A stretch of DNA of 64,000 nt from contig CM026428.1 in assembly GCA_014871385.1 (NCBI GenBank), positions 5,136,820-5,200,819 on the forward strand, read 5' to 3'. Below the pieces are notes generated by a model. That model had not been told where the DNA came from, made no database searches, and was given only the letters and a program-made list of their open reading frames with translations. The DNA is from Ceratodon purpureus (taxonomy: Eukaryota; Streptophyta; Bryopsida; Pseudoditrichales; Ditrichaceae). Made by a program: the position numbers and the translations under genes. Below are positions 1 to 23,303 of this stretch, piece after piece (the first letter of the stretch is position 1; each line of letters starts with the position of its first letter).

Positions 1-37
1 ATGACAATTTTGACATATGCAACACGTGTCTGCGCCT

Positions 38-80
38 GACGGTTTGGCCGAGCGGTCTAAGGCGCTGGATTTAGGCTCCA

Positions 81-112
<32 letters not shown>

Positions 113-117
113 CGTCA
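38..117 (+). tRNA. tRNA-Leu (anticodon UAG)
   Basis: The sequence folds as a class II tRNA. The acceptor strand GACGGTT pairs with AGCCGTC, with one G-T wobble. The anticodon stem CTGGA/TCCAG encloses the loop TTTAGGC, so the anticodon is TAG and decodes CUA leucine codons. A short variable arm and a T arm (GTGGG, TTCAAAT, CCCAC) follow, then discriminator A at 117. There is no intron, and CCA is not encoded, as expected for a nuclear gene. Confidence 0.95.
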
Positions 118-190
118 GTATTACCCTGCAGAGTTTTATCTTTTTCCCAACACTCTAAATTTTTTCGTACATAGTGTGTAACTAAGGTAG

Positions 191-312: not shown

Positions 313-1421
313 CAAACCGCCCACCATGGGCTGTAAAAAATCACGTAGAAAAAATTAAAGGAAAAGTGGACGGTTTTTGAGTTTTTGGTGGTTGGATAGA
401 ATGCCCAATGTGGATGAAATAGTACTTGTTGGTGGATAGAATGACGGCTCTTGGTGTGCATAAATTAGTGAACTTTGAGAAGCTCACCACCTTTGGTGCA
501 ACAAGGTGGTTTTCAATTCCATCTCAACACCTTGGAGAGGAATGCACACTTGTTGAGAGGGGGCAGCCATGCTCCAAGGAGTCCTTCATGCACTCAAAAG
601 GTCACCAACACCACAACAAGGGGGGCAGCAGCTAGAAGGAATGGGAATTGGTCAATTGAAGAAGGCCATGGATGCAGTCACTGATCAAGGCATGGAGGTA
701 AGAAAAGCTGCTCGTACCTTTGGAATTCCAGTGAGCTCTCTTAGAGATCACTTGTATGGCAAAACTTTGAAGAGAAAGAGAGGCAAGCAACCAGTACTCA
801 AAGAAGATGAGGAGACAAAGTTAGTTGAGTATTTATTTAAGATGCAAGACTTGGGCCATCCTTTAACCCCAGGACAATTGAGGTTAAAGGTAGCCCAAGC
901 TACACAAGCAAGGGAGACCCCTTGGAGTGATGTAGGACTCCCTGGAAAAAATTGGTTGAAGAGTTTCAAGAAAAGACACCCTGAAATTGCATCTAGAAAG
1001 GGGCAGCCACTAGAGGTTGCAAGAGTTAGAGGTCTATGTGCATCAACTGTGGCTACACTCTCTGGAAACTTACAAGAGCTCTACAATACCTTCAAGTATC
1101 CACCCTCACACATTTGGAATTGTGATGAGAGTGGTGCACAAGCTGGAAGGAGTGGAAGAGCCACTGTTTTGGCAAGAGTAGGTTCCAGAGCTGTACACAC
1201 AATAGAACCAGATCAGAGAGAGCATCTATCAGTCCTAAGTTGCATCAATGATGATGGTGGAAAAATACCTAACTTCTATGTGCTAAAGGGGACTTACTTC
1301 ATTGGAAATCATGTCCTAAACTATGAGAAAGGTGCACTAATGGCTATGCAGCCAAATGCTTGAATGACCAAGTGGCTTTTCCAAACATGAATGTCACATT
1401 TCATCAAATGTTTGTAGGTGT

Positions 1422-4271: not shown

Positions 4272-4280
4272 GTGCGTCAC
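4272..4280 (+). repeat. MULE target-site duplication, left copy
   Basis: GTGCGTCAC immediately outside the left TIR, identical to 18741-18749. Confidence 0.95.
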
Positions 4281-4532
4281 GGAGAACGCTAAATCCCATG
4301 TAGCAAAGGGTAGGGTTGGTGGGTCCCCGCCTCGGCGGTCCGCGTCGCGTGCCACGTCGGACCCGCCGTTTCACCCGTCGCGCGAGGCCCGCGGTAACAG
4401 CGGGAGACCGTAATTTTTTTCCTGCGTGACACTACTCGCGAAACACCTCCCATCGAGACTCAGCCCGTGACACTAAACACTGACCACCAGTGACACTGCC
4501 CGACACAACACTGACCGTGCCCAGAAAATTAT
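4281..4532 (+). repeat. MULE left terminal inverted repeat, 252 bp
   Basis: It starts GGAGAACGCTAAATCCCATG and ends CCAGAAAATTAT. It holds a GC-rich outer half and three GTGACAC heptamers in the inner half (near 4437, 4467 and 4491), which are candidate transposase-binding sites. It matches 18489-18740 in reverse complement over its full length. Confidence 0.95.
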
Positions 4533-4539
4533 GACGTCA
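4532..4539. promoter_or_regulatory. Palindromic TGACGTCA (CRE/bZIP-type) site
   Basis: A perfect TGACGTCA palindrome starts at the inner border of the left TIR, upstream of the ULP-like gene. TGACGTCA is a classic plant bZIP (TGA-type) binding core, so it may drive the rightward gene. It is absent from the corresponding inner edge of the right TIR. Confidence 0.5.
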
Positions 4540-4783
4540 TGCGACAGGTCATCGTCTCTCTCGGTACTTGGCTTGTCGACTAGGGTTTTCTAGTGTTTTG
4601 CGAGTTCTTTGTTGGTGAAGGAAATGGGTATGATGATGGGTTGCTTTGAATTGCATTGAAAGAGCTGGGTTGTAGGCTTGATCTCTGTAGGTTTTAGGGT
4701 TTACGGGAAATTAATTCGCGCCATTTAGTGTTCTATCTCGTCACATCAGTCCCAGGTGGAACCCCTCATCAACTTGGACCATT

Positions 4784-4880
4784 ATGTGCTACGGCGTGGA
4801 GATGACACTTTTGGAGACGCGCAAGAGCAGCGGCTTCAAGTCTGAGCGCGAGTATCTTTGCGGCTACCGTCACGATGGAG
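4784..4880 (+). other. Possible 5' exon of the ULP-like gene
   Basis: An ATG at 4784 opens a reading frame (MCYGVEMTLLETRKS...) that reaches a strong donor, GATGGAG|GTAAGT, after 4880. A second small exon-like stretch ends ACCAAG|GTGCGG near 5045. I could not find an acceptor that joins these in phase to the long frame open from about 5254, so the true first exon and start codon remain unresolved. Confidence 0.35.
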
Positions 4881-5442
4881 GTAAGTTTCAATGTCTTCTT
4901 GTTTTTGTTATTGTGTTTCCCGCAAATCGCTACGTTGAATCCACATGGAGTCTTACACTGTGCATCTCACCGATCTCTGCGTCACGAGCAGAAGCGCCGT
5001 GGAGACGTCGTCGGACCCGGACTTCGCGTTTTGGAGCATACCAAGGTGCGGAATCTGATTAGGTTTTAGGGTTTATTTCTTCATGCTCGTTGTCTCCACA
5101 TTTCAGTGTTTCGCAGAACTTGAAATTCTGTTACTCCTGGATTTAGGGTTCAGGGGCGGGGGTATGTCCATCTCTATTTGCTGTTAATTTTTTTGGGCGA
5201 GAAACATGTCTGTGTCTGAGTTCTTTTACGGATTATTTGATTAATCCTTTTCTGTGAGAACCTCTACATGTGGCAGGGACCACGACCAAAGCACTGAGGC
5301 GGATTGGTTCTATTCCCATGTCTACTGCAGAAGGGGGTGCGGGATTCCTATAGGGGTGCTGAATAAGTTTAGATTCATTTGTTTTTTTGCTTCCGGGTGT
5401 CCTAAGTGCGGAGAACCTACACAGCTGTACAAGGCAGAGGAT

Positions 5443-8400
5443 ATGGCAGAAGAGCCTGTGACACTTAAGGTGGTTATCTATGGCCACAGCTACAATATCC
5501 GCTACCCGAGTCTTCGGAGGGTTCAGGAATTACAGAAGGAGTACGCGACGATGTGCAAGGGGTCGATGCGACCATGCGGGACGAGGAAGTTCTTCGTTTG
5601 TATACATTGCGGAAGAGATGAGTTCTCGAACAAGATGATGCTCAATCGGCATCGATACGTGGAGGGGTGTGATGGTGCGAGGTACCCGGATGGAGCAGTT
5701 GCATTACTGCTTCCGTATCCAGACTTCAAAACTGGAGAGGGTAAACGCGTGGAGGTTCTGGGTAAGGAGACTGAGTCATTGAAGAATAGACCAGGTGGAG
5801 CAGACCGTCTGCCACAGAACGCTGGACCGTCTATCGTGACAGGTGGAGATACCGTGGATCCAGAACGTGTTCAGGAGGGGGGGAAGAGGACTGGTACAGA
5901 TGGGAGGATTTTGCCATCTGAGGACATTTTCTTCAAGAAGGCTCCTCTCACGAAGGGAGAGGACAAGGGGGGTCGTGGTGCCAAAAATGTGAGAAAAACT
6001 CCCCCGAAAGCAGCCAGAAAAAGAGCAACACCGGGATCACGAGTTTCACCGGATCGGGTCGAAGCGGAAGAGGGCGCTGCCATTGCTGACCGTGAAAGGG
6101 ATTTGGAGACAGGGCGTGACAGTGTCACAATGGAGGATGATCTTCCTCCGTTCGAATTAGGAAGGAGGAGTGTCACAGGGCCCAATGAAGAAGCTGTGGA
6201 GACGGAAACGGCTCTCACTGATCGAACCATGCTGGGGCCGACTTTGATAAATAAGACTGTGGCTATGCCGAAGAGCGGGTCTCAAGGGAAGGTTGTTACA
6301 TTCGTCTGTGACACTAACGCACAGGTGGAGATGTCCCCGGACGATGACAAGCCAACGCATTTGAGGGGGCCTACAATCAGAGACTCTCTGAAGCGGAAGG
6401 TAGAAGCAGTGAGAGAAGAGAAACCGAAACGGAAGAAGGGGAAGCCCGTGAAGAAAGCAAATGGAGGTACCACATCGCCCACGGAGGTAAGTGATAGGCA
6501 GCAGGCAATTGACACATTACGGGAGAGGTTTAGGGTTCAGATTAGGGGTGCGGCTGAGGGAACAGGGGAATTATTTAGGGGTTATAGAATATCGAAGAAG
6601 GGTACAAAGGTCAGTGAGGAAAGTGTCGAGACTAACCTAGATGTTACACATTCTGTAACTGTAGATGTGAAGGGTACAGATGTTATGAACCAGATGTCAC
6701 ATAACGTCCTAGGTGATTGTATGCAGTGTCACAGTGACGTGTATGTGGGAGATGATTTGCCCACCATGGATAGTCCATCACGTCCGCACCCACCTAGTTC
6801 AAGGATGTCAGTTGAGGAGTCAGTTTACTCTATTACTGTGTGGGACAATGACTTCGACTCGAACACGGAGCTTCTATACTACTGGGCGGCCGGGAATGGG
6901 TGCCCCGGGCCATTTACTTTTCAACCTGGAGCGAGGGAGAGTTTCACTGCGAGGAGGGATCTTCTCACCGACTTCGAAAGGGAACACGTGGTGAAGCAGT
7001 GCAGAGAAGCGGACTCGGTTCAGCGTCAACCACCTCCACCAGTTTGCCCCGAAAAACCAGAGATGCCTGGATTGTACCACTTGCGAGATATTGCTCATGA
7101 CGTCACACTGCCATGGACGTGGGACAGTGACACTGGGGAAGAGTTCGTGCGTCGATGGAATGAAGATGTTGCGAAGCCGGAGTTCAAAGAGAGGTTGCAT
7201 CATTTGCCGTATTGGTGGATTCGTAGAAAGGTGAGTGCCGAGGGTTTGCGGATCGCTAAGAGAGAATTTCATTACAAGTTCGGTCTGTATTCCGTATGCT
7301 CTGCTCTATTTCTAACAATTTATTCTATTCCTTATTAGGGGGATAAGAAATCACCATTGCATCAGACAGTTGTCCAGTCCGTCACACTTGCGCTCGATGC
7401 ACTTGTCCAAAGCGTGGAGGATGGGGTTTCGTACGAGGATTTACATGCTCTCGGGCGGTACGTTCAGTGGACTCTTGACTATAAATCCTATGAGACGGCC
7501 TTGGACACCTACCGAATGGAAATGCGGGACGCTGAAATCAGAAGAGCGGCTTTGGCTACTCTGAAGTTCAGGGAGCTCTATGGTAGGTTGTACGAAGAGG
7601 TACTATGGGACTGGTCCCCCCTGTGGCGTATAATCTCGAATACAGAGATCCTACTCCGACAAATGCCTCGAATGCCATGGCGCCATGACGGTAAGAACAT
7701 ATGCCATTTTTTATTTGATGTTTAGTCGTTGTCGCTATAAGTTTCAATAAGTCATATTTCGGTTCGATTTCTAAACCTGTAAGTTACAAGCTCTTACTGC
7801 GCGTGTGTAGTACTAAAATTCTGCTGATGAATGTGTTACAGGTATTGAGGCGACGGAGGTTAGGAGGTTATTATGCGAGAATCGTGTGGAGGCGGCACCG
7901 CCCATACCCTTAGTATACGTCTTCAGGGTCCTCTTCAAGTGTGTATACGGTCAGTTTAGACTTCTATCATGCCCTGTCTTCGGATTGACCGAATCTGTTA
8001 TCAGGAAGGAATGTAAACTCGTCTTGAATATCCAGCGAGCACTGTCCATATTCACGGCCGAAGGGTCATACTGTTTTTCGGGACTCCGGTTCGGCATTGG
8101 TGAGACTTTGCGGGCACGTGTTATCAGTGAGGTGGAAAAAATCAATAGTGGAGAAGGAGGGGACCTGATCGAGGCGGTACTTCACTGGCTTCGAATTGTT
8201 AGAGTCAGGGCGCTCCAAGATTTGGCGGTGTGCCAAGCATTGGAGTTCAATTGCATTTGGACGTCGACAAATCCAGAGCAATGGAAGGAGCACTCGAAGA
8301 TATGGGAAATGGTGTTACGCACAAGAGAAGACAGCGACATTGGTTGGGTGGCTACTGTTGAAACTCCGAATTGGAATCCGGGAGTAGCTGCTCTGAAGCT

Positions 8401-10754
8401 TGGAATTCTGGAAGCAGTTTGTGCGGTAGAGGATACGGTAAAGAAGGAAGACATGGCGTATTGGTCAGTCTGTTCAAGGGATTTACGTAAGGGAGTACCA
8501 AGCCCAGAGGAACAAGGTGCCCAGCAGGTACAGGGAGAGGGGGTTATAGCAGAGGCGGCAGTTGATGAAATAATAGCATCGGATACGGAGCATCAAGTTC
8601 AGATTCCGGAAGTGAGGGAGGAGACGGTGTTGCCGGAGTCCAAGAAAGGGGAAACAACGACAGTCTCTACTGTCGGCTTGGTCCCCGTCAGTGCCCCTCA
8701 CGAAGAACTTATGAAGTTAGTGGACATTGGTGACACACAGTGCGAGGACGTCAAACATTCGGGGCTGGGGATAACAAGTATTGACGACGTAATGCCAGAG
8801 AATTCTCAGTCTGTGGAGGAAAAGAAGATCGCATCTGTTGCGGACATTCCCAACAGTCCCACGGCCACTGACCCCTGTTCCAGTGTCACAACAGGGCAGC
8901 CACGGTATTCTTTGAGAATTGACCGCGATAACGGTATCCTAGTCGCAGAAGGTCCATTCCTCCCGGCTGACTTGACCAAGGGCGAACAGTGTGAGACTAA
9001 TCTTCTTGGGGCAATAGCCGATGCGGTACATGTGGATCGTCGTGGCAGCAATGTCACGGATGACGTTACAACGCCAATCCTCGGCAGTCCTGACGGAGTG
9101 AAGGATGCATCCAGTACTGTCTCGAAGGGTCCGTCGACTGGATCCCCAGATGTGAAGCACAGTGCCAGTGTGCTCTTCACCGATGTGGCCGACAGCGAAC
9201 ATCCTAGAGCGCAAGCAGAGACTGGCTCGGAGTATACCACTGCGGAAAATATTGGGACATCTCTGACCTTGCAAGACTCCGTCGAGCCGCTTCCAAACCT
9301 GACTCAAGGTTATACCGTACCTACAGTTTTCCCGGAAATCCGGCAGATTCTAGAAGATAGCAGCTCGCCCCCTGTTCTGACCCCGTTGATCACTCTTAGC
9401 CAATTCCATAACACCGCTCACGGAGGAGAAGACATGGTGGTGGATGAGACGGCATTTTCACAAGATCCGAGTTTTCAGAATTGGGTGAAAGGGAATCCAG
9501 ATGCCAATGTTCGAACACCTTACAAGGGAGTATCTATTATCCCCGGTAACAGCGGGCCCCAATTGCCAATTGTCCACAAAGATTCGACGTGTAGGAATCT
9601 CAGAGCAACCTTCGATGAAGAAGAGGAGCTCGAAGACACTGCAGCCGAGCTCGTGAACTTAGCTCAGCAGTCGGATTTGGAAAGTAAGTCGGCAATTGGA
9701 GAGGCTGACACTGTAGAGGATAAAGAGGTTGCACGTGTCGTGGCAGCAGCTCCTTGGCCGGGTTGTGCCATAATCCGGCTTGAAGAAGTTGCTGTCATGA
9801 CACTCTCCCAAGCGTATAATTACTTACACGTAGAGGACTTGATGCAGACATTGCCGGGGCGCCGAGGGAAGCGGGACGGAGCTCTTGATGTGGTCTTCTT
9901 CTCGGAGAAGAATAAGGAGATGGAGGTGAAGTTCCAGGCGATACGAGACCTAAAGCGCGTGCGGACCAGGCTCGGTAATGACATCGTGGACTTCGTCATG
10001 TCCCGACTCTATTTCCAGTACTCTCCCTCTAACCGGCATGAAATTCTCTTTGCTCTATCCCGTGTTAGCTCAACATACAGGCGTTCTATGGAAGACCCGG
10101 CTTCAGTGCTTAGGTGGGCGACGGCATTTCTTCTGCCACCTAGCCCTGTGAAGGTGCATCAGGTGAAGGAAATTTTGGTGCCCTGGGTCGACCACGACCA
10201 CTGGTCACTGCTCGTGTTCCAGTATGGGAAGGTAGTTCACCTCGACTCGGCCGAAAAGGAATACCACCAACCCGTAGGTAGGGACGCGGCGTTTGTGAAT
10301 GCAATCTCCCATGCTTGGCAAACTCTGAGAGGGGTAGAGCCTTATGCGGTCCCAGTTTTGAAGTTGGAGGTATTGAAGCAGGCGGGGAATTACGAGTGTG
10401 GTCACCATACAATACGGAACAGCATGTTGTACTTGAAGGTAACATATTATCCTTTAACTATCCCAGGGCGCCATCTTTAAATTTAATGTAGTCTCCGTAG
10501 TAGATGTTCAAACCGTTTAACATGAATACTGATCTCTGTGAATAAATGGTCTACAGTTACGAGCTTGGCGTTCCGACAAGAGAGAGGAGCTAATGAAGAA
10601 GGCCTTGATGGTTCCCTTCACACCAAAGGATGCGAATCTGGAAATTTTGTCCCTCCTGGCCCAGGAAATGGACCCTAATCGCCGTGACACTAGGTTCAGT
10701 GCTCCATTCAGTGTCCCGCGTAAGAAACAGGGACGTAGTGGACCCTACTTCTGA
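5443..10754 (+). CDS. Large MULE-encoded protein with C-terminal Ulp1/C48-like SUMO protease domain
   Basis: There are four exons: 5443-7230, 7339-7690, 7842-10438 and 10557-10754. All junctions are GT-AG and in phase, giving about 1644 residues from Met 5443. The frame is open upstream to 5254, so a 5' exon may extend it. Residues 53-76 hold a C-x2-C-x13-H-x5-C finger-like cluster. A long charged, probably disordered middle follows. The last 150 residues look like a Ulp1-type cysteine protease: His1500 in DHDHWSLL, Asp1515 in VVHLDSAE, Gln1560 and Cys1566 in QAGNYECGHH. The His-Cys spacing (66) and Gln-Cys spacing (6) match yeast Ulp1. The usual D-C-G is E-C-G here. Known ULPs cut SUMO precursors or conjugates in the nucleus. 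A role in transposition is inferred only from its presence in the element. It converges with the transposase gene. Confidence 0.82.
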
Positions 10755-11035
10755 ATAATTCCAGTAGAACTATGTGTGTCAGACATGGACCCTCTCAATG
10801 TAAATTTATTGGACCGAGGAACTCACCCTATTCAGTTTAAATCTGTAATACCGTCATCTGCAATACCGTCACCTATGTATGTGTGGGCTGTTTGAATTTG
10901 CTTTCCTGTCTATGTCTTCGCTACATTTGTAACTCTTAAGGTCTATGCTGTTAAATTGACTCCTTCTCCCAACCATTGTCACATTCGCATGCCGAAAAAA
11001 AATATCACGTTGTGTTCCTCTCGGACAGTGTAACG

Positions 11036-11330
11036 TTGTGACACAGAGGGACACTGTCACACAGAGGGACACTGGGACAATGTGACACAGAGGGACAGTG
11101 TGACACGTTGTGACACTGTGACACAGAGGGACACTCTGACACTGTGACACAGAGGGACACTCTGACACTGTGACACACTGTGACAGTATGCCGCAGACTC
11201 ACACTTGGATACAATGTGAATCAATGTCACATTGTTGAGACACTGTGACACAGTGTTGCAATGTGATCAGACTCTGAGAAGAAGCGACACTGTCGATACA
11301 GTGTGAACCAGTGTCACATTCCGAATACAC
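11036..11330. repeat. Imperfect tandem array of GTGACACAGAGGGACACT-type units
   Basis: Short units built from GTGACAC, GAGGGACAC and CTGTGACAC alternate for almost 300 bp and then fade into GTGTCACA variants. The core is the same heptamer found in the TIRs, so this array may bind the same protein or have grown from such a site. Confidence 0.85.
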
Positions 11331-11674
11331 TGCGGATCTGTGTCACAATGTCGACCTAATGTCCTTTATAGTTACGTACGAAAAGAAAGATAAGTCGGAG
11401 AGAACAAAAATACCCAATGACGTACTTCCGTTTAGAGAAGTCTTCACAGGTATAAGAAATATCCCTACGTATTGTATAAAGTTTTTTTTATGAAAATTTA
11501 GAAATGACTCCAGTGACTCTAAATTAATTAATTTCTTTACTCCCCCCTACAATGTATCTCGGTACATGTGTACACTCTAAACACATTACATCACTGATAT
11601 AATTTTAGAACGTAACTCTCCAAAATTATTGGATTTACAATTAACTACGTGTATTTACATATGTAAATGTGACT

Positions 11675-11686
11675 AAGTATATATAC

Positions 11687-11752
<66 letters not shown>
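11675..11752. repeat. (TA)n microsatellite
   Basis: A nearly uninterrupted TA dinucleotide run, followed by further TA-rich stretches to about 11,830. It is prone to slippage and assembly error. Confidence 0.95.
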
Positions 11753-11758
<6 letters not shown>

Positions 11759-12908
11759 TTATATACATACGATTAAAAAATATATATATATATGTATATA
11801 TATATATACATGTTTTAATTGTATTTTATATGAGTGTACGTATACATATGTGTTTTTATTTAAATTTAAAAAAAATTATTTATTTATGCTTTCCAATAAA
11901 TTTAAGAATTAAATATATTAAGGGGGAAATTCGAAGTAAATGTAAAGAGTATTATCTACTGATAACCGTTTGCGAATAAGACAATCGTAATTTACCTCTT
12001 CAAATTAAAAACGTACACGTTCTCAATTAAATTTGAACACGACATTTAAATAAAAGGTTTGAAATATAGTAACTACGGGACTGTCGTTACTTAGCACGGA
12101 TGAGTTTTATGAAAGATAAACCATAAAATATATCACCCAGAGGAAATGAAATTATATGTCAGAAATGGGCAGATACCTAAACAATTAAAATATAAGAAGT
12201 ATAAAATATTTTATGTGAAACAATTATTTCATACTGATGAGTATGTGGTAATATTGCGTATTTGGAAACCATAGTGTAAATAAAAAAAGTATTATACTTG
12301 CATGTAATATCAAGATCAATGTGAACTCATAATAACCTCATCGAAATCGGAAGGAAACTCTTTTTTAAGTAAATAATTAATGTTTATTTGGCCGTAACAT
12401 TTCAGAAATAACTAAAACACCCTTATTAATAATACATACGACGATATCATAAATTACCCAGTCATTTCTACAAGTCATTATTCACATAAATTTTCATTAT
12501 ACTTTTTACCATCACATTACCAATTAAGAAAATGCACTTTTCCATTCAATATATATAATTTGATATGAAGAACAACAAACTTTATCGTGCACGTACTGTA
12601 ACGGTTGGACCCTAAACCAGTGTAATCCCTATTGTCTGGTTACAACCTCATCAGAACACTTCCCAGATTCAACACTTTATATAGACAATGTCACAGTGTC
12701 ACAGTGTACTAAGTGACGGTTTGTGACACAGCGTTAAAATAATAAGTAACCGAACATGTGACACTGCAAAATATAAATCAGTGAAAAGAGGCTCGGACAA
12801 ATAAAGCGTGATATTGTATTACTCTTGCCATAGCACTTCTGTTCCTTAAGGGACATACAGGAATGTGTGAACTATAACATAGAACTAATAGCCTAGAAAT
12901 AAAGAGTA

Positions 12909-13298
12909 TCAACTGTTGTGAGTACATGATACCATGGATGTGCAACCACAGTCCATGGTCTTGGTGTCACGCGCCTCATTCTTCCACTTAGACTGGCCTT
13001 GCAATAGAGAGACGTAAGTGTTGGCACAATGTACTCCGTTGAACCGTTCGCTTCCAGGGAAGAGGACGACCTTCTTCCTCTCCGGAGCCTTTGAATTAAC
13101 ACCCAAAGCAACCGTCCCTTTACGCTTCAGGTGGGAAGGTCGTGAAGACGAGGCCGGGGGATACACTCGTTCATTATGCACTGGCAGAACAGTACGATCG
13201 GAAGGTGGAATGGAGAGACGACTTCTCGGGACTGGTACATCTACAAAATCGGCCAGTGTTGCTAAGAACTCCAACACCTCCGCTTCTAACCGTTCCAT
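12909..13298 (-). CDS. Small basic MULE ORF, function unknown (129 aa)
   Basis: It begins MERLEAEVLEFLATLADF, a short acidic or amphipathic helix. A proline- and serine-rich stretch with basic patches (HLKRKG, APERKKVV) follows, and the C terminus is cysteine-containing (MDCGCTSMVSC). I recognise no family. A TATA box lies about 115 bp upstream, which supports a separate transcript. Its place between transposase and ULP gene recalls accessory genes such as mudrB of MuDR, but there is no sequence basis for equating them. It may be an exon of a longer gene. Confidence 0.45.
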   Translation of the reverse strand: MERLEAEVLEFLATLADFVDVPVPRSRLSIPPSDRTVLPVHNERVYPPASSSRPSHLKRKGTVALGVNSKAPERKKVVLFPGSERFNGVHCANTYVSLLQGQSKWKNEARDTKTMDCGCTSMVSCTHNS

Positions 13299-13322
13299 TT
13301 CTAATGTAGAATCCAGAAACTA

Positions 13323-13840
13323 ATACAGACTTCACGTAGATCACAGTCTTAAAAATGAGACTACGAAAGGGAGACTGCGAGAGAGGGTCTGAAGCGAAGA
13401 AGTTGTCCCTTATATACAATCCGTGGGCGTCAATTCGATGAGAACGGTCCACGTTCTTCTCTAGTGGGAACTACTGCGCGTCTTAAAATTCTAAACCCTA
13501 ATCCATTTATAGTTATATCGTGCAACAGCAGAGTTGACAAAGCTTACGATAGTAATGGAAAGATGGATAAATCTCTGCTTTCAGTAAAGGCATATGTGGC
13601 TTCGTGAAGTTTTCATTTGGTACATACATTATACATTGCATTGAGTTGCAGCACCTAGACAGTGTCACAGTTAAAAACGTAGTTGAGAGCAAGCATAAAA
13701 CAATGTATGTTTCATACTGAATGCAGTGCGGGTTTAGCATCTGGACATTTATTTCATTACTAGAGGTGCGGCCAAAATTTGGTCTACAGCCAAAGAGAGA
13801 GTCCAAATTATGCCCATTGGTCTAGCTAATCCTCTAAGCT
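13323..13840. other. Spacer between the two small MULE ORFs
   Basis: Apart from the TATA box at 13410-13417, I see only short antisense or overlapping frames and one GTGTCAC heptamer near 13,668. No gene is supported. Confidence 0.5.
13410..13417 (-). promoter_or_regulatory. TATA box for the 129-aa ORF
   Basis: On the minus strand the sequence reads GTATATAA, about 112-119 bp upstream of the ATG at 13298, a normal distance for a plant core promoter with a short leader. Confidence 0.5.
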
Positions 13841-14227
13841 CTACTTCGCACTATAACTACTGAGATTGTGCAACTCCTCGTCACCGACTCCATTGTAATA
13901 CTCGTTCCATATGAAACCAGCGTCGTCGGAATCACATTCCTCTCCAACGAAAGAGCACGGCGGTCGCACAACACGACCAGTCGGGGTAGGTTCTTCAGGC
14001 TTGCTACGGCGGGCGCGGACCGTACCGAATCTCCGCCTATGTGACACTGGGATACACCTACACCCATGACGTGTAGAGTGATCTCCTCCACACCCAGTCA
14101 ATGGGTGTTTGCGTCCACAAACCGCGCGAACACTGCAAATGCAGACAGTCGACATTGCCAACACTGCAATACCAACCGCAACAAGAAACACCCACCCCGC
14201 TAGATCGAACACAATCAGCACTACCAT
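13841..14227 (-). CDS. Small single-pass membrane protein in the MULE (about 128 aa)
   Basis: From the ATG at 14227 the N terminus is a long hydrophobic stretch (MVVLIVFDLAGWVFLVAVG continuing to about residue 30). A cysteine-rich basic segment (CICSVRAVCGRKH, CGGDHSTRHGCRC) and an acidic C-terminal tail follow. This suggests a membrane-anchored protein with a Cys/His cytosolic or lumenal part, possibly metal-binding. I do not recognise the family. A TATA-like TTTATAAG lies about 105 bp upstream. It could instead be a 5' exon of a larger leftward gene. Confidence 0.45.
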   Translation of the reverse strand: MVVLIVFDLAGWVFLVAVGIAVLAMSTVCICSVRAVCGRKHPLTGCGGDHSTRHGCRCIPVSHRRRFGTVRARRSKPEEPTPTGRVVRPPCSFVGEECDSDDAGFIWNEYYNGVGDEELHNLSSYSAK

Positions 14228-14327
14228 CGTGCACATGCCGAGAGTAGGAAGAGTATGAGAAAGTTCTGTCTCTAGTTGCGATGTAATGGATCACAGTGAG
14301 AGGGTTAGGGCGAACACTTATGCTGAA

Positions 14328-14336
14328 CTTATAAAT
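14328..14336 (-). promoter_or_regulatory. TATA-like box for the membrane ORF
   Basis: The minus-strand ATTTATAAG lies about 105 bp upstream of the ATG at 14227. Confidence 0.4.
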
Positions 14337-14421
14337 CCCTGAGACACCATGAAGATACTTCCTTAGAAGACGCAGTCAACCCTAGAACGATATCCGGACT
14401 GGGTTAGTCGGCGGGTATTGC

Positions 14422-14625
14422 CTACAAACGGCGTGCGACTGAACTTTTCGGCTTCTCCAAGAAGTCCTTGAACCGCCCAAGTTTGAATCCTTTCCCATCC
14501 TGGACGGGGGAAAAATGAGGCGTTCCGGCCATAGGATGCACAGTCCCCAAATTAATCTCCGCTTTGATAGTTCTCAATCGACCCAATGTCTGGTTTAGGT
14601 CCGCTATCACATGCTGCATCAATAC
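14422..14625 (-). other. In-frame 67-codon extension behind the transposase amber stop
   Basis: Immediately after the TAG at 14628-14626 the same frame stays open for 67 codons (VLMQHVIADLNQTLGRLRTIK...) to a stop at 14422. The leucine-heptad pattern before the stop (LRQQIILLHEEI) continues after it. The TAG therefore looks like either a CAG-to-TAG truncation or a read-through stop. Confidence 0.6.
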
Positions 14626-17600
14626 CTAGTCACCACCGATTTCCTCGTGCAACAAAATAATTTGTTGCCTTAGCGTTTCCGCCAGGTCAGCCTGTGGATG
14701 CCTAGCCGGTGTAGCCCTATGCACAGACATGGGCGTCGTAGACTGTGACACTGGAACATGTTCAACCCGTCTAGGCGTTAGCAACTGTTGCAATCCGCCG
14801 TTAACGTTTCCAGCTAATCTTCCACAGAACCTCGCAATGGTTCCTTCAGCCATCTCCGGGTGCATCATCATGACGACTTTGATATGATGTTTGCACAGAT
14901 TTCCACGCTGAGCCCAGACGCAATTGCAAACCCCCCATTCCGAACCTGGATTATGGACAGTGTAACGCAGATGTCTATGATCAGTTGATGTTACAAGTGC
15001 CACATCTTCATCCATGGCAGGCAGTGTCACATCTTCATCCGGAATACTTCTGGCTTTTAGGATGGAGTTAACAACAGAGTCCTGAATTTTTTTATTGAAA
15101 ACAAAACCCTTTTCCTTCAATAGGTCCTTGTACCAATAGTGATCAAGAACGTCCTCCGTAAGTGCAGTAATACACCAGTCTACCCTTCTTCCTGTCATCC
15201 TGCTCCGCTCTGATTTCAAGATGGACTTCGAAAACCCGTGGTAACCCTCTATAGCAGCATTAGTGTCCTGCCCACAGTACTTTAACTTCCGGAAGCCGAC
15301 AACCCACATGTGGACCTTGTCCAACCATTGATTTTCCATATATTCCCAGAACTCCTCTTCCTGAGGATATTTTTTCCGCAGCTCCTCGATCCGTTCCTTA
15401 GCCCAGTCCTTCCCTTCAGGACCCTCCGGTGCACTTCTATCGTACATAATCGCACCTAATTCTTTCAGGATAGCAGCTCGCCGCTCTTGATTTGATATCT
15501 TGTAACAACAATTCTTTTGCCAAGCCCGTCGAACGTGCCAGAGGCACAGGAATATCTTCGTATTGGGCCAAGTGACACTGCCGAAATCAATGTCACAGTC
15601 AGTGTCACAGTTGGAGTAGTTTGAATCACTGCTTACCACTTTTCCAAGGTACAACAGTACAAGTTTCTGACCAAGGGTAATCATTTAACAGTAAAGAAGG
15701 AACAATTCACGGCGTTACATAAATTCACTTACTTTATCGCATTGATTTCTCCTTGAGCGCAATCCACTATAAATGTTGCGGGTCTCCAGTCTGGTTTCTC
15801 ATCAGTCATTCTAGAATTCAATGCCGTCATCCAAGGTGTAAGGTCTTTCTCAGCACATCGCGAAGTCAGAATAAACGCCACAGGAATACCGTTGTGCCAC
15901 TCATCGAAGACCATGAGTGTGTACAGAGGGAACTGAAAATAGCAAACATACAGATTATAAGATATCAGTGTCACATTAATATCAGTGTCACAGAGAATCT
16001 CAGTGTCACAGTGTATATCAGCGAAAGAATAGACAGAGTAAAGTACGTATCAGTATAGATCGAACCTTCTTCTCGTTCGTCCCGAATGTGGCGTCTACAG
16101 ATATACCACTTTGATGCCCGTGCTGGAGCATCATCTTCTTTTGCCAAGGCGTTTGAATGCCTATGGTGAAGGGCATATTCTCTCCAGTCAATTCTCCAGG
16201 AACGGGTACGGGCTTCTCCTTTTTGGACTCGGTGTAGTAGAACACTTTGTCACTATTTCTTTGGACCCACATCCGCACTGATTGGGCGTCATTCTTATCT
16301 AACATATAACTCTCTTGAGCCAGTTTCCCTGATATGTTCCGAATATCCTTGGTGGTAAGTAACAGGTCCCTCGTAATCTCCCTCCCTTCAGCTTGGTACT
16401 TTTTCAGGAGTTCCAAGTGCTTCTTCATAATTTGGTTTGAGGTGTCTTTCCGTCTAAGGCACTCCTCGACAAACGCTCGGATCTCAGGAGACAAATGCGC
16501 TGAAAATGCACTACGGTCCCCTACCTTCATACCACCATGGACCACTAACCCATCACAATTTACATGCTTCTCTTGGATGATAGTAAGCTCAGAAACATGA
16601 GGGAGGTGCAGGAATGTCTTAACTGTGAATTGGGCGAGGCAACCCCTCTTAACAGAGGCCCCCCATTTCTTCTTGGAATCTCTTTTCATTCTAGGACGGA
16701 TTTTTACAGGTTCATCTTCCTGCTTCGGTAAAACCGTGGCATCCTCGGCCTGTGCGCTATCTGGATTAAGGACCTCGTCTCTGACATCCTCTCCACACGC
16801 ACATGTACTCGCACATGCTGATTCTGGGCAAGATGAACCCATCACAGTGTCACATAGTGCGGACAAAAGCGACCCGACACCATCGGCAGGGTTACCAGAG
16901 TTGTTTTCGAAGTTCGCATCTACTGGAGTCGTCGCTTTGTGTTCTTCGCTTATAGGAGATCCCGCAGTACACGTGCCTGTCGTCTTCTTGCGAGCACCTC
17001 GTTTTTTGACATCCTTCGATGGTAGAATAGAAGCTCCACCTGTCGGATTCACCACCTCTCCAAAATTTTCAGCAGTTTCCATCGAGGACAGAGTACTTGT
17101 CGAAGCCTTCTTCTTCCTTGGAGCTCGCTTCTTGGGCAATCCTGGAACCTGGTCAGTGACATTAGACGCGGTTTCATCCTTTTTTTTCCTGGGGCCTCGT
17201 GTCTTCCTCGGCTTGGGAGGGTTCTCGGTTCCTGTGACACTGACTTCGGGAATTGCGGTGTCACCTCCGACTGGAACATCTACAACCTTCTTCGTAGGTT
17301 GTCGCTTCCTCACAGTCTTCGCCGGTGCAGGTACCGAGTCCTCAACGGTGGGAGTCTCGTTAAGATCCGGAATTCCGCCAACCATTTCATCAGACGAATG
17401 AGATTCAGGGTCACTTACCTTTTTCGAAACACCCTTCTTTGCCCGGGACGATCGTTTCGGAGGAGGAATTGGAAGAGGCTCCTGTACCATCCAATCCATG
17501 GCATCAACGGGTGCAATCGGGGTCTTCGATTTAAACTTGCGCGGGGGCTTCCTCGCATTCGGACCCTTACTCCTCTTCGCTCTAGCTTTCCTAGTGGGAG

Positions 17601-18291
17601 CCAGGACGTTGCCCTCCGGGACAGCGTCAGGAACACGATTCTTCTTCCTAGGTTTCGGCAGAAGATCCTCAGAAATTGGTTTCACAATGCGGCTGAAATC
17701 TTGAGGTCCGTACTCGCACTTATACCTGTAAAACATAAACGGAGCCAACCTTCAAGAATTGTCTGTACAGGATAAGGGTTAGGGCATTCATAGACTTCGG
17801 GAATAACAGAGGACAACAAATAACATGCTGATAACAAAAAAGTATCTTCTACTATGTGACTCTAGGGCTTTCGAAACCCTAAAAGAAGTCAGTGTTGTTC
17901 AGTGATTCAAGCGGTGGAATACATACCTGACGAAATTTAACGCTGTCCGAGGCCCCTCACGCAGCTGAGTATGTGCTCTGTTCTCCTTATTTGCTCTGAA
18001 CTTACACTGCGCACCCTCTCTCCCACACTGCATCCCTTCAATAAAGTCTTCGACACGATCACTGGGAATGTAGCATTGTTGTACGACATGTGCTCTCCTG
18101 TGCTCACCACGAGGGGGACGGTATACAACATCCCACCTCAAATCGCGTGGCCCAACAATTCCAGGGGGCGGGAATTGGAGACGTTCTTCAATGTCCAATA
18201 ATTGCAGCTTGTGAATATCGTACTGACTAATGTCTACATCGTCTACGAAGTGATCGTGAAAACTGTGGGACTCCATCTTAGGTGTGTCCAT
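14626..18291 (-). CDS. MULE (MURA-like) transposase, DDE plus SWIM zinc finger
   Basis: Four exons on the minus strand: 18291-17927, 17725-16066, 15932-15733 and 15577-14626. All junctions are GT-AG with matching phases, giving about 1058 residues. The N-terminal part is followed by a long Lys/Pro/Ser-rich linker (exon 2) and then an FAR1/MULE-like DNA-binding region. The catalytic core begins with Asp666 in GISVDATFGTN and continues across the intron into FPLYTLMVFDEWHNGIPVAF. Asp732 lies in FIVDCAQGEINAI, and Glu852 in NAAIEGYHGFSKS is the likely third acidic residue. WPNTKIFLCLWHVRRAW is typical of MULE transposases. A SWIM finger follows (C959-x-C961, C970-x-H972). The last exon ends at an amber codon with 67 further open codons. 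It would bind the TIRs and catalyse cut-and-paste transposition. A TATA box lies at the inner TIR edge. Confidence 0.88.
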
Positions 18292-18484
18292 GCTGCATTT
18301 CGACGTCAAAATCCTAAACCTAATCAAAAACAGCACGATCTACTCTGCAGCATACCTCAGACGACAGTGGTTGAAAAATGCAAGAAACCTAACTACGAAG
18401 CCCCTAAACCCAAACCCTAGATCGAGACAACGACAAACGTAGTGACATTGAACACGGATGAAAAAAAAAATCCGTCACAGAAAC

Positions 18485-18491
18485 TTATATA
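18485..18491 (-). promoter_or_regulatory. TATA box of the transposase gene
   Basis: The minus-strand TATATAA overlaps the inner end of the right TIR, about 195 bp upstream of the ATG at 18291. This suggests the TIR supplies the upstream promoter, as in other MULEs. Confidence 0.5.
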
Positions 18492-18740
18492 ATTTTCTGG
18501 GCACGGTCAGTGTTGTGTCGGGCAGTGTCACTGGTGGTCAGTGTTTAGTGTCACGGGCTGAGTCTCGATGGGAGGTGTTTCGCGAGTAGTGTCACGCAGG
18601 AAAAAAATTACGGTCTCCCGCTGTTACCGCGGGCCTCGCGCGACGGGTGAAACGGCGGGTCCGACGTGGCACGCGACGCGGACCGCCGAGGCGGGGACCC
18701 ACCAACCCTACCCTTTGCTACATGGGATTTAGCGTTCTCC
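18489..18740 (-). repeat. MULE right terminal inverted repeat, 252 bp
   Basis: Reverse complement of 4281-4532 with no mismatch or indel seen by eye. It contains the same three heptamers in inverse orientation. Confidence 0.95.
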
Positions 18741-18749
18741 GTGCGTCAC
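18741..18749 (+). repeat. MULE target-site duplication, right copy
   Basis: GTGCGTCAC immediately outside the right TIR, identical to 4272-4280. Confidence 0.95.
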
Positions 18750-20519: not shown

Positions 20520-23303
20520 TTACCAATAATCACCGCAAGAACACGTTCCATCCTTGAAGTGGTGAAACCGACTTGCATCTCTGGCCACAATCTCTCGACC
20601 AGTGACCTTGGAGATTAACTTGGTTGCTGTATGGCAATCCTTGCACACCCGAAGATTCTTGAAGATCCGAATTGGTTTTCCGGGAGGAATATGCATCAGT
20701 CCATATGCAATGGCTAACCTCTCACTGTGAGAGCACAGAGCTACTTCTTTTTCCTCCTCGCCAATACCACGCAATACAAGCTGAGTATCAGGAATATATC
20801 CTTCACCTTTTAGTTTTTCAGTCAATATTTTCAGCTCAGCGTATATCTCCTCAGTCTCTGCGTGCGATATATCTCCTACAACAAAAGAATGGATTTTGTC
20901 ATTAACTTCGATCCAGCTATGTCCTGGCTCCTTGCGTATGCCCCTTCCTTGTACCATACTTCGCAATCTGGGCATCTCTTCCCACTTCCCAGCTGCACGA
21001 TATATGTTTGACAGGGTGAGGTAACCGGACAAGTCCTCTGGCTCCCTCTTCAGCACCTCTTCGGCAGCTAATTCAGCCAATTCCACATCACTATGAATTC
21101 TACATGCACTAAGTAGAGTTTTCCATGTCACAGCGTTTGGTTCAATTGGCATATTATCAATGAAGAGCCTGGCCTCCTCCAAGTGCCCTGCCCGCCCAAG
21201 AAGATCCACCATGCAGTTAAAATGCATCACAGAAGGTGTAAAATCATATTCTTGAATCGAAGCCTTGAAATGGTGACGACCTTCTTCCACGAGACCAGCG
21301 TGGCTGCAGGCTGACAAAACTGCGACATGAGTGATTCCATCTGGTCTTACATCGTGTGCCATCATTTGTTCAAACATTTGCAGGGCTTCACGGCCAAGCC
21401 CATGGTCTGCAAGACCACCGATCATCACATTCCATGTGAATAAGTCTCGATCCGTCATTTGGTTGAATAGTCTCTGAGCTTCTTCAATGCTTCCACTCTT
21501 TGCATACATGTGAATGAGTGAAGTACCAACCCGAATATCTGATTCAAACCCTGCTTCCGAAGCGTGCCTGTGAACCTCAGTCACCCATTCCACACCTCCT
21601 ACCCTTACACGAGGATTCAAGATGTTCACAAAAGTTGTTGCCGTTGGCAAAACACCTCCTCTCTGCATCTGGAGCAAGAGAGACAATGCTTCGTACCCAA
21701 GCCCCTGTTCTGCCACTAAACCGATTATCACATTCCAAGTCATTACATCACGATCCACCATTCTGTCAAATAATTTCCGGGCCTCATCGTATTTACTAAT
21801 CTTGGCATACATGTGAAAAAATGCTGTACCCACACGCACATTTGACCCAAGCCCTGCTTTAAGGGCATGCCTGTGAGCTTCCTTCACCCATCCCAAAGCA
21901 CCTTCGCTTGAGTTTGGGTTTAGCAGGCTTGCAAATGTGATTGCATCTGGAGTGAAGCCCCCTTGCTTCATTTTGAGGAAGAGTGAGAACGCTTCGTGGC
22001 CATGACCTTGTTCTGCAAGTCCCCCAATCATGACATTCCAAGTGATAACATCACGAGTCACCATTCTGTCAAAGACTTTGCGAGCATCTTCAAGGCTTCC
22101 ACTCTTGGCATACATGTGAACTAAAGCACTACCCACACGCAAACCTGAGTCAAGCCCCGCATTCAGAGCGTGGTTGTGAACTTCCTTAACCCAGGGCAGG
22201 CCCTCTGCGCTTGCACGAGGGTTAAGGATGTTCACGTAAGTAACAGAATTAGCCTTAAACCCCTCATTCTGCATTCTGAGAAAGAGGCTGAACGCTTCAT
22301 TCCCAAGGCAGCAATCTGCAAGTCCACCGATCATAACGTTCCAAGTGATAACATCACGGTACATCATTTTGTCAAACACTCTCCGAGCATCCTCAATGCT
22401 TCCAACCTTTGCATACATGTGAATCAAAGAGTTGCCCACACGCAGTCCTGAAGCAAGCCCTGCTTTCAGGGCGTGGATATGAACCTCCTTGACCCATTTT
22501 AGGGCCCCTGCCTGTGCACGAGGGTTCAATATGCTCACGTATGTGACCTCATCCGGCATGAATCCTTCCTGTTGCATCTGGGAGAAAAGTCCATATGCTT
22601 CAGCACCACGACCTTGTTCTGCATATCCTCCAATTATCATATTCCAGGATATGGCATCTCGGTGAATCCCCATTTCAATCAATACTTGTTGTGCATCTTC
22701 AAGGTGCCCAGACTTGACATACATCTTGAGAAGGGCGTTCCCCACTCGGTCATCTGCTTCAAGACCACTACTTCTGATGTGGGCATGTATTTGTTTGCCC
22801 CACTTAAACGTTAGGGCTGGGCTGGTGCACGCCTTCAGAATATTCATGTAAGTAACTGCATCTGGCTGCACACCTTCTTCACACATTCGGTTGAAAACTT
22901 GCATGGCATCCTCTGGTCGATTCTGTTGAGCTAAGCCTCCGAGCATGGTAGTCCAAGTAATAACACTTTTCTTCACAAGTTTGTCAAATGCTTGGCGTGC
23001 ATCCTGCAAGCTCCCACATTTGATGTAAACTCTCAGGAGGTTGTTGACAACAAGTGTATCTTGCTCCATTCCACTCTTCATCATCCAGTCATGAACCTGT
23101 TTGGTCGACACCAAATCTCTCTCGTCATAGCACCTCTTCAGATTACTGATTGCCTCATTTCTCGTTCTGGCATTCTGGATGTGCATACTAGCAGCAGGTT
23201 GAGATTTTCCGATTCCATGAGAGCTGTTCTTGAGTACCCTGAATATCAGACATGAGGAGGTTTTCAGCCATAACATCATGTGTAAGAGACCGTCGCTCTT
23301 CAT
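20520..23303 (-). CDS. PLS-class pentatricopeptide-repeat protein with E and DYW domains (927 aa)
   Basis: An intronless 927-codon ORF, typical of plant PPR genes. A short N-terminal region, possibly an organelle presequence, is followed by about twenty P, L and S repeats (for example DALKLGK-like HGIGK start, ITWTTMLGGLAQQ, ISWNMIIGGYAEQ, ITWNVMIGGLADQ). E1/E2 motifs and a PG box (EPGHSWIEVND) come next, then a complete DYW deaminase. Its zinc and catalytic signature is HSE at 859-861 and CKDCH at 887-891, with CSCGDYW at the C terminus. Such proteins bind specific organellar transcripts and deaminate C to U in mitochondria or chloroplasts. Several L-S blocks are near copies (WVKEVHxHALxAGL), which points to internal amplification. 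Mosses have few DYW proteins, each with defined sites. I cannot assign it to one named orthologue. Confidence 0.93.
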   Translation of the reverse strand: MKSDGLLHMMLWLKTSSCLIFRVLKNSSHGIGKSQPAASMHIQNARTRNEAISNLKRCYDERDLVSTKQVHDWMMKSGMEQDTLVVNNLLRVYIKCGSLQDARQAFDKLVKKSVITWTTMLGGLAQQNRPEDAMQVFNRMCEEGVQPDAVTYMNILKACTSPALTFKWGKQIHAHIRSSGLEADDRVGNALLKMYVKSGHLEDAQQVLIEMGIHRDAISWNMIIGGYAEQGRGAEAYGLFSQMQQEGFMPDEVTYVSILNPRAQAGALKWVKEVHIHALKAGLASGLRVGNSLIHMYAKVGSIEDARRVFDKMMYRDVITWNVMIGGLADCCLGNEAFSLFLRMQNEGFKANSVTYVNILNPRASAEGLPWVKEVHNHALNAGLDSGLRVGSALVHMYAKSGSLEDARKVFDRMVTRDVITWNVMIGGLAEQGHGHEAFSLFLKMKQGGFTPDAITFASLLNPNSSEGALGWVKEAHRHALKAGLGSNVRVGTAFFHMYAKISKYDEARKLFDRMVDRDVMTWNVIIGLVAEQGLGYEALSLLLQMQRGGVLPTATTFVNILNPRVRVGGVEWVTEVHRHASEAGFESDIRVGTSLIHMYAKSGSIEEAQRLFNQMTDRDLFTWNVMIGGLADHGLGREALQMFEQMMAHDVRPDGITHVAVLSACSHAGLVEEGRHHFKASIQEYDFTPSVMHFNCMVDLLGRAGHLEEARLFIDNMPIEPNAVTWKTLLSACRIHSDVELAELAAEEVLKREPEDLSGYLTLSNIYRAAGKWEEMPRLRSMVQGRGIRKEPGHSWIEVNDKIHSFVVGDISHAETEEIYAELKILTEKLKGEGYIPDTQLVLRGIGEEEKEVALCSHSERLAIAYGLMHIPPGKPIRIFKNLRVCKDCHTATKLISKVTGREIVARDASRFHHFKDGTCSCGDYW

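Follow-up and report, generated by a model that had tools for sequence, protein, structure and literature searches.

A multigene Mutator-like element family of the moss Ceratodon purpureus with a core C48/Ulp1-like partner gene and a retained motif array

Is a 14.46-kb Mutator-like element (MULE) of the moss Ceratodon purpureus a complete transposon that still moves, and what are its additional genes for? The element, E0, occupies positions 4281 to 18740 of a 64,000-nucleotide stretch (the window; assembly GCA_014871385.1, contig CM026428.1, positions 5,136,820 to 5,200,819), and all positions given here without a contig name refer to this window. We conclude that E0 is a real, structurally complete, multigene MULE with terminal inverted repeats (TIRs) and that it belongs to a recently active family. 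With slightly more than even confidence, we lean toward the view that the family's large partner gene, U, would supply a self-encoded helper that acts at motif arrays in the manner of VANC and KIU.

The left and right 252-bp TIRs (4281 to 4532 on the plus strand and 18489 to 18740 on the minus strand) have the same sequence. When we aligned the first with the reverse complement of the second, 252/252 bases matched, and the local alignment stopped there. The left TIR starts with GGAGAACGCT and contains three copies of the motif GTGACACT. The target site duplication (TSD) GTGCGTCAC borders E0 on both sides (4272 to 4280 and 18741 to 18749), with agreement at 9/9 bases. A MULE-type DDE transposase, the 9-bp TSD, long TIRs, and dispersed copies place the element in the Mutator superfamily. 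An earlier note, made from the letters of this DNA, had proposed that this is a MULE of 14.46 kb, structurally complete, in a bryophyte-like genome and odd in size and gene content (MuDR is about 5 kb), with identical TIRs of equal length, a perfect 9-bp duplication, seemingly intact splice sites, and a single amber codon; all of these features were borne out. Boundaries created by an assembly artefact, a concern that the note had raised, are unlikely, because the whole window contains no N and the other copies sit at independent targets with TSDs of their own.

We searched the 362.5-Mb host genome for further TIRs and scored the best 40 of 95 candidates, which resolved into 18 candidate pairs plus 4 matches that stood alone. 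Seventeen of the pairs, E0 included, read as elements whose ends are GGAGAACGCT or differ from it at few positions. There are thus at least 17 paired elements, so the concern that E0 might have no related copies is refuted, and these elements and the 252/252 match together rule out chance TIRs. The TSD is perfect in 14 of the 17 and agrees at 8/9 bases in E1 and E8 and at 7/9 in E7. We dropped the remaining pair, E18, whose flanks agree at 1/9; two of the single matches (S16 and S19) read as single ends, and the other two were left out. Eight copies (E0, E1, and E3 to E8) entered a common alignment, from which E2 was excluded for its nested insertion, and E9 to E17 were read at their ends only, except that E10 and E12 also supplied C48 pieces. 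E2 (L011 to L014, C6:86062484-86093905) is 31.4 kb long and has ~17 kb inserted where exon 3 of U belongs.

The copies show recent movement of the family. E1, on contig C6, is 98.5% identical to E0 across nearly its full length in a BLAST alignment. E4, E5, and E6 are each exactly 11,980 bp long and lie on C6 in three different 9-bp targets; E6 differs from E4 at 23 positions and E5 at 35, so that the copies are 99.7 to 99.8% identical. Because such near-identical copies sit at different targets, the family moved recently. The age of E0 itself is a separate matter. The claim that full TIR identity implies a young copy does not hold as it was argued. Over the 17 elements, the median TIR difference is 1.2% within an element and 28% between elements. 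We polarised the changes between E0 and E1 with E2 over 12,890 columns and found 57 E0-specific substitutions since the split, 42 E1-specific ones, and 3 unresolved. One E0-specific doublet is mirrored between the two TIRs (4349-4350 and 18671-18672), as is one E1-specific TIR change (4348 and 18673); E1 also has two unmirrored TIR changes. These patterns indicate that TIRs are homogenised inside elements. E4 to E6 show the reverse, as two left/right TIR differences are common to their three separate insertions. TIR identity is therefore only loosely tied to insertion age, and the zero TIR differences in E0 allow, without proving, a young insertion.

We built gene models for the transposase gene, T, and for U from splice sites, conservation, and three-base periodicity in the eight-copy alignment. 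T lies on the minus strand and has four exons and 1,127 codons, including the stop. Exon 1 (17927 to 18291) has GT/AG borders and is conserved in relatives. The first catalytic D (DATFG) lies close to the end of exon 2 (16066 to 17725), exon 3 (15733 to 15932) carries the second, and exon 4 (14422 to 15577) carries the catalytic E, a SWIM-type CxCx8CxH motif, and a conserved C-terminal tail. The D, D, and E residues line up with those of relatives, and the product up to the amber codon matches PF10551 (E=5.3e-14, above the cut-off) and PF21056 (3.1e-8). A stop after INAIK was rejected as the true stop of T, as it belongs to an intron. T runs without an indel across all 1,127 codons in E0, E1, E3, E4, E5, and E6 and has frameshifts in E7 and E8. 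The ratio of nonsynonymous to synonymous substitutions (dN/dS) is 0.18 for E0-E4 and 0.16 for E0-E3 (dS 0.57) and lies between 0.28 and 0.35 in the close pairs E0-E1, E3-E8, and E4-E7. These values indicate that T is under purifying selection between subfamilies.

The frame of T is open in E3, E4, E5, and E6 and has a stop at codon 965 in E1 and at codon 1059 of 1127 in E0. The E0 stop is the amber codon (14626 to 14628, minus strand), a substitution of the kind that CHG deamination produces, and E1, E3, E4, E7, and E8 have a sense codon there. The 67-residue tail that E0 lacks is 92 to 99% identical in the 8 other copies searched and 58% and 63% identical in two distant relatives. With the last 68 codons of T lost, E0 would depend on T made elsewhere and is probably not self-sufficient for transposition. 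The suggestion that the element could still be active is thus better founded for the family, with its near-identical copies at different targets, than for E0 with a T that lacks a conserved tail. An alternative is that E0 is an inactive, inherited element whose TIR identity reflects gene conversion and not recent movement. This account fits TIR homogenisation, the amber codon, and the 57 substitutions specific to E0. We consider it improbable in view of the perfect TSD (though 14 of the 17 elements have one), a U frame that is open from exon 2 on, and the 99.7 to 99.8% identity of sister-subfamily copies.

U is read on the plus strand as four exons (exon 2, 5278 to 7230; exon 3, 7339 to 7690; exon 4, 7842 to 10438; exon 5 with the stop, 10557 to 10754), with exon 1 not located, and its product has ~1,700 residues. 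From exon 2 onward, 1,699 codons are open in E0 and E1. A stop at 7336 to 7338 was rejected as a recoded or read-through stop because it falls at the end of an intron. U of E4, E5, and E6 has a 1-bp deletion relative to E0 and stops at codon 1694, E5 stops also at 1475, and U is broken in E7 and E8. The frame model of E0 fails for U of E3, which instead has two stop-to-stop frames, of 705 and 737 residues; its exon 4 is 46% identical to that of E0. The dN/dS of 0.28 for E0-E4 indicates that U, too, is under purifying selection between subfamilies.

The C-terminal domain of U (9680 to 10438, plus strand) has the order H..D..Q..C. We aligned 21 members, consisting of E0 and 20 others picked from stop-free rows (E10 and E12 among them), a choice biased toward intact residues. 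W-S-L, D-S, Q, and C are invariant in 21/21 members, and H is present in 20/21. Thirteen of the 21 match Peptidase_C48 singly at E up to 10 (best 2.9e-6). With a profile of the aligned domain, the best PDB match is an Ulp1-like SUMO protease (E=0.0016) and the next is SENP8 (0.03), both weak profile matches. These results indicate that the domain is divergent C48/Ulp1-like, with its residues in H-D-Q-C order. There is no Pfam match above the cut-off in exon 2 of U or in the exon 3 and exon 4 frames. A protein search with exon 4 gave one match, 98% identical, among the 8,000 best candidates scored, and searching with the end of the complete U yielded zero proteins.

The earlier note had spoken of an unusual multigene cargo. 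To place U in the family, we scored the best 126 of 799 T-exon candidates and the best 150 of 394 U-domain candidates in the genome. A scored U domain lies within 20 kb of 103 of the 126 scored T exons, and all 103 pairs are convergent. Random placement over 200 rounds, with a few contigs set to 16 Mb, gave a mean of 3.1 T-U pairs and a maximum of 8. The selection of the best 150 of 394 U domains may account for some of the remaining 23 T exons. The layout, in which a partner gene with a C48/Ulp1 domain runs opposite to the transposase, is that of VANDAL/KIU-type elements. Because so many T exons are paired, all convergently, when about three were expected, U is family-wide; it is a core gene and not captured cargo. 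The gene content is unusual, as proposed, but its main extra gene is no passenger. There is a precedent for a conventional MULE that carries captured host gene pieces, like a Pack-MULE, as transduplication of Ulp1 pieces has been reported for both MULEs and CACTAs (PMC2528002). Such an origin is nevertheless very improbable for this family, given the same convergent layout at 103/103 paired loci, the catalytic residues kept in the 21 aligned members, the long open frames at many of the 150 scored U loci, and the dN/dS of U. The U frames of E3 also argue against it, as they are open despite the 46% identity of exon 4.

The two halves of the element differ in their relationships. T of E0 is equally distant from T of E3 and E4 (dS 0.570 and 0.567), whereas U of E0 is near that of E4 (dN 0.19) and far from that of E3 (dN 0.54, dS saturated). 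We compared identities to E0 in 32 pairs hand-picked from the 103. In 6 of these elements, T is 85 to 92% identical and the U domain 55 to 60%; in 10 others, the values are 74 to 77% for T and 71 to 75% for U. We read these contrasts as different histories of the T and U halves, which may have been exchanged between lineages as modules.

The third unusual feature is the motif. GTGACACT occurs 29 times in E0 versus 2 times in the remaining 49.5 kb of the window, and shuffles of the window gave a mean of 2.15. Fifteen of the 29 copies lie outside exons, six of them within the TIRs (three per TIR). One tandem array of the GTGACAC motif lies between U and the small gene X2 (11037 to 11185), and another, with an 18-bp unit, lies in intron 2 of T (15962 to 16021). 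GTGACACT is also the most frequent 8-mer of at least three letters in stretches of two distant relatives. We measured retention against matched 8-mers of the same composition without CpG, leaving out the TIRs. Among E0, E3, and E4, GTGACACT sites outlast the controls in 12/12 comparisons (one-sided Fisher p of 1.7e-5 to 0.04; the comparisons are not independent). From E0 to E3, 9/11 motifs are retained in exons versus 46/210 controls, and 5/6 are retained outside exons versus 20/99.

These features recall VANDAL21, which has genes for a transposase, VANB, and VANC (PMC5735166, PMC13317346, PMC2528002, PMC10398659) and in which VANC targets short motifs that form tandem arrays within introns and spacers (PMC5735166). 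By analogy, T would cut at the TIRs, and U, as a large C48/Ulp1-like protein, would be targeted to GTGACACT arrays directly or via T. U would then oppose SUMO- or chromatin-based silencing, as has been reported of VANC and KIU for VANDAL MULEs in Arabidopsis. E0 would use T from elsewhere, whereas its own U frame has no premature stop in the four exons read. We infer this anti-silencing mechanism, and it is testable.

Several observations weigh against a VANC-like role for U. By the gene models, 14 of the 29 motifs are exonic, unlike the mainly noncoding VANC21 sites. The TIR motifs are not clearly retained (2/6 to 4/6 versus a background of 0.26 to 0.37). GTGACACT is unchanged in relatives with a very different U, whereas target motifs differ from VANC to VANC (PMC5735166, PMC10398659). 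Constraint on U looks weaker recently, with dN/dS of 0.45 to 0.47 in close pairs, and one of the 21 C48 members, L047, lacks the catalytic His. Even with the E limit raised to 10, the C48 domain of E0 itself matches nothing in Pfam, and no link in sequence from U to VANC emerged from the Pfam and protein searches, which bear on it only indirectly. X2 was not found in the recently multiplied E4 to E6. The lack of clear retention of the TIR motifs and the constancy of the motif despite a divergent U weaken the VANC analogy and keep T as a possible binder.

The array could accordingly consist of binding sites of T, or of X2, for synapsis, transcription, or titration, with U acting otherwise, for example by controlling how stable T or the integration complex is. 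A motif that stays constant across lineages with widely differing U, its three copies per TIR, and the zinc-finger-like CxCxnCxH motifs in T and X2 fit this explanation, as does the report that MURA lowers TIR methylation of nonautonomous copies (PMC10398659). However, 23/29 motifs are found not in the TIRs but in introns, exons, and spacers, and the TIR motifs are the very class that is not clearly retained; we regard binding by T or X2 as rather unlikely, though a serious competitor. The VANC/KIU-like role of U is the reading we keep, and a broader version of it we hold only tentatively, somewhat short of an even chance. In that version, moss TIR-MULEs would have a sequence-specific, self-encoded anti-silencing system, made of an Ulp1-type factor and a distributed GTGACACT array, that is independent of or ancestral to Arabidopsis VANC and whose T and anti-silencing halves are exchanged as modules.

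Smaller frames accompany T and U. X2 (12909 to 13298, minus strand) is a 129-residue gene ending in CxCx5CxH, with dN/dS of 0.22 to 0.39 over five elements; between E0 and E1 (dN 0.011, dS 0.005), there are too few changes to interpret. X2 is inverted relative to T in F2, and in F1 the matched 129 codons have no stop directly after them. X1 (13841 to 14236, minus strand), a separate gene or a 3' exon, is open in 8/8 aligned copies, and two distant relatives also match its final ~30 residues. Because its three-base periodicity is ambiguous and its dN/dS is 0.40 to 0.52 between distant copies and 0.79 for E4-E7, we claim X1 as a conserved open frame only. The overlapping frame X3 (14058 to 14375) is less similar than X1 in E3 and E4. 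A TA dinucleotide repeat of 65 copies (11678 to 11808) lies inside E0 between U and X2. Around E0, the window contains a tRNA-Leu gene (37 to 118, plus strand), a nearby pogo/Tc5-type transposase-like stretch (open frame 557 to 1363, plus strand, with HTH_Tnp_Tc5 and HTH_psq domains), and a 928-codon frame for a PPR-DYW protein (20520 to 23306, minus strand) that lies 1.8 kb from the right end of E0.

The distribution of the family is uneven. A review puts the genome of C. purpureus, the fire moss, at 360 Mb and its U and V sex chromosomes at >100 Mb each, ~30% of the genome (PMC8000587). Contig C6 has 110.5 Mb, or 30.5% of the genome, and is presumed to be a sex chromosome. It holds 75/126 scored T (binomial p=2e-11) and 98/150 scored U (2e-18), about a twofold enrichment, in counts that rest on the best 126 of 799 T and the best 150 of 394 U and so may be biased. 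T exons are free of stops in 35/75 cases on C6 versus 43/51 elsewhere (Fisher p=1.6e-5). Damaged copies persist on the presumed sex chromosome.

Relatives of T extend well beyond this moss. Residues 480 to 1040 match 50 proteins, which include fern and many angiosperm ones, several of them named SWIM-type. His replaces the first catalytic Asp in 22/50 aligned relatives (21 of the 22 are named, and all 21 are from angiosperms), and 14 other named angiosperm relatives keep the Asp. This pattern suggests domestication of the angiosperm SWIM-type relatives from this MULE clade. Records P0002 to P0005 of ena hold T pieces 80 to 92% identical to E0, and P0051 holds a U exon at 98%; other deposited samples thus contain close relatives.

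MULE-encoded anti-silencing has been worked out for Arabidopsis VANDALs and is indicated for maize MuDR. With its open frames, near-identical copies, C48 partner, and motif array, the moss family could test how general such anti-silencing is in land plants. T is a mobile relative of possibly domesticated angiosperm SWIM proteins, and the copies make it possible to contrast how damaged copies persist on the presumed sex chromosome and on the remaining ones. In the open-licence literature, judged from titles and abstract openings, we found no bryophyte MULE with these features.

Among known systems, E0 resembles the VANDAL and KAONASHI (KIU) MULEs, in that the ULP gene of KI-MULEs is reverse to the transposase (PMC13317346, PMC2528002), and it resembles VANDALs in having its motif in tandem arrays within an intron and a spacer. 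Unlike VANDALs, whose TIRs are degenerate or absent, E0 has identical 252-bp TIRs and so does not show the TIR loss of VANDAL/KIU elements; its motif is also constant across lineages of divergent U and is present in exons as well. The melon and grapevine TIR-MULEs with ULP1 have ULP-like sequence downstream of the transposase, there in either orientation (PMC2528002). We liken them to E0 by their described layout; the excerpted account mentions no motif arrays. Unlike them, E0 has a moss host and a ~1,700-residue partner that is under selection and that accompanies 103/126 scored T exons in the family. Hvu_Abermu of barley is likewise large (8,176 bp), with TIRs of 138 to 145 bp, a 9-bp TSD, and three frames, one of them reverse, and its ORFR is divergent (PMC9168764). 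It is smaller than E0 and, per its authors, closer to MuDR, and the excerpted description mentions no ULP domain (PMC9168764). MuDR of maize shares with E0 long TIRs, a 9-bp TSD, and two oppositely transcribed genes (PMC9168764). Lanisha, an EnSpm-like lineage of DNA transposons that was named recently, has been linked to this moss. Membership in the Lanisha/CMC clade was considered and rejected, as elements there mostly have CA..TG ends and 2- to 5-bp TSDs (PMC12730594), unlike the GGAGAA ends and 9-bp TSD of E0. Set beside these systems, E0 is ordinary as a member of the Mutator superfamily and unusual in its core C48 partner, its retained motif array, and its modular history.

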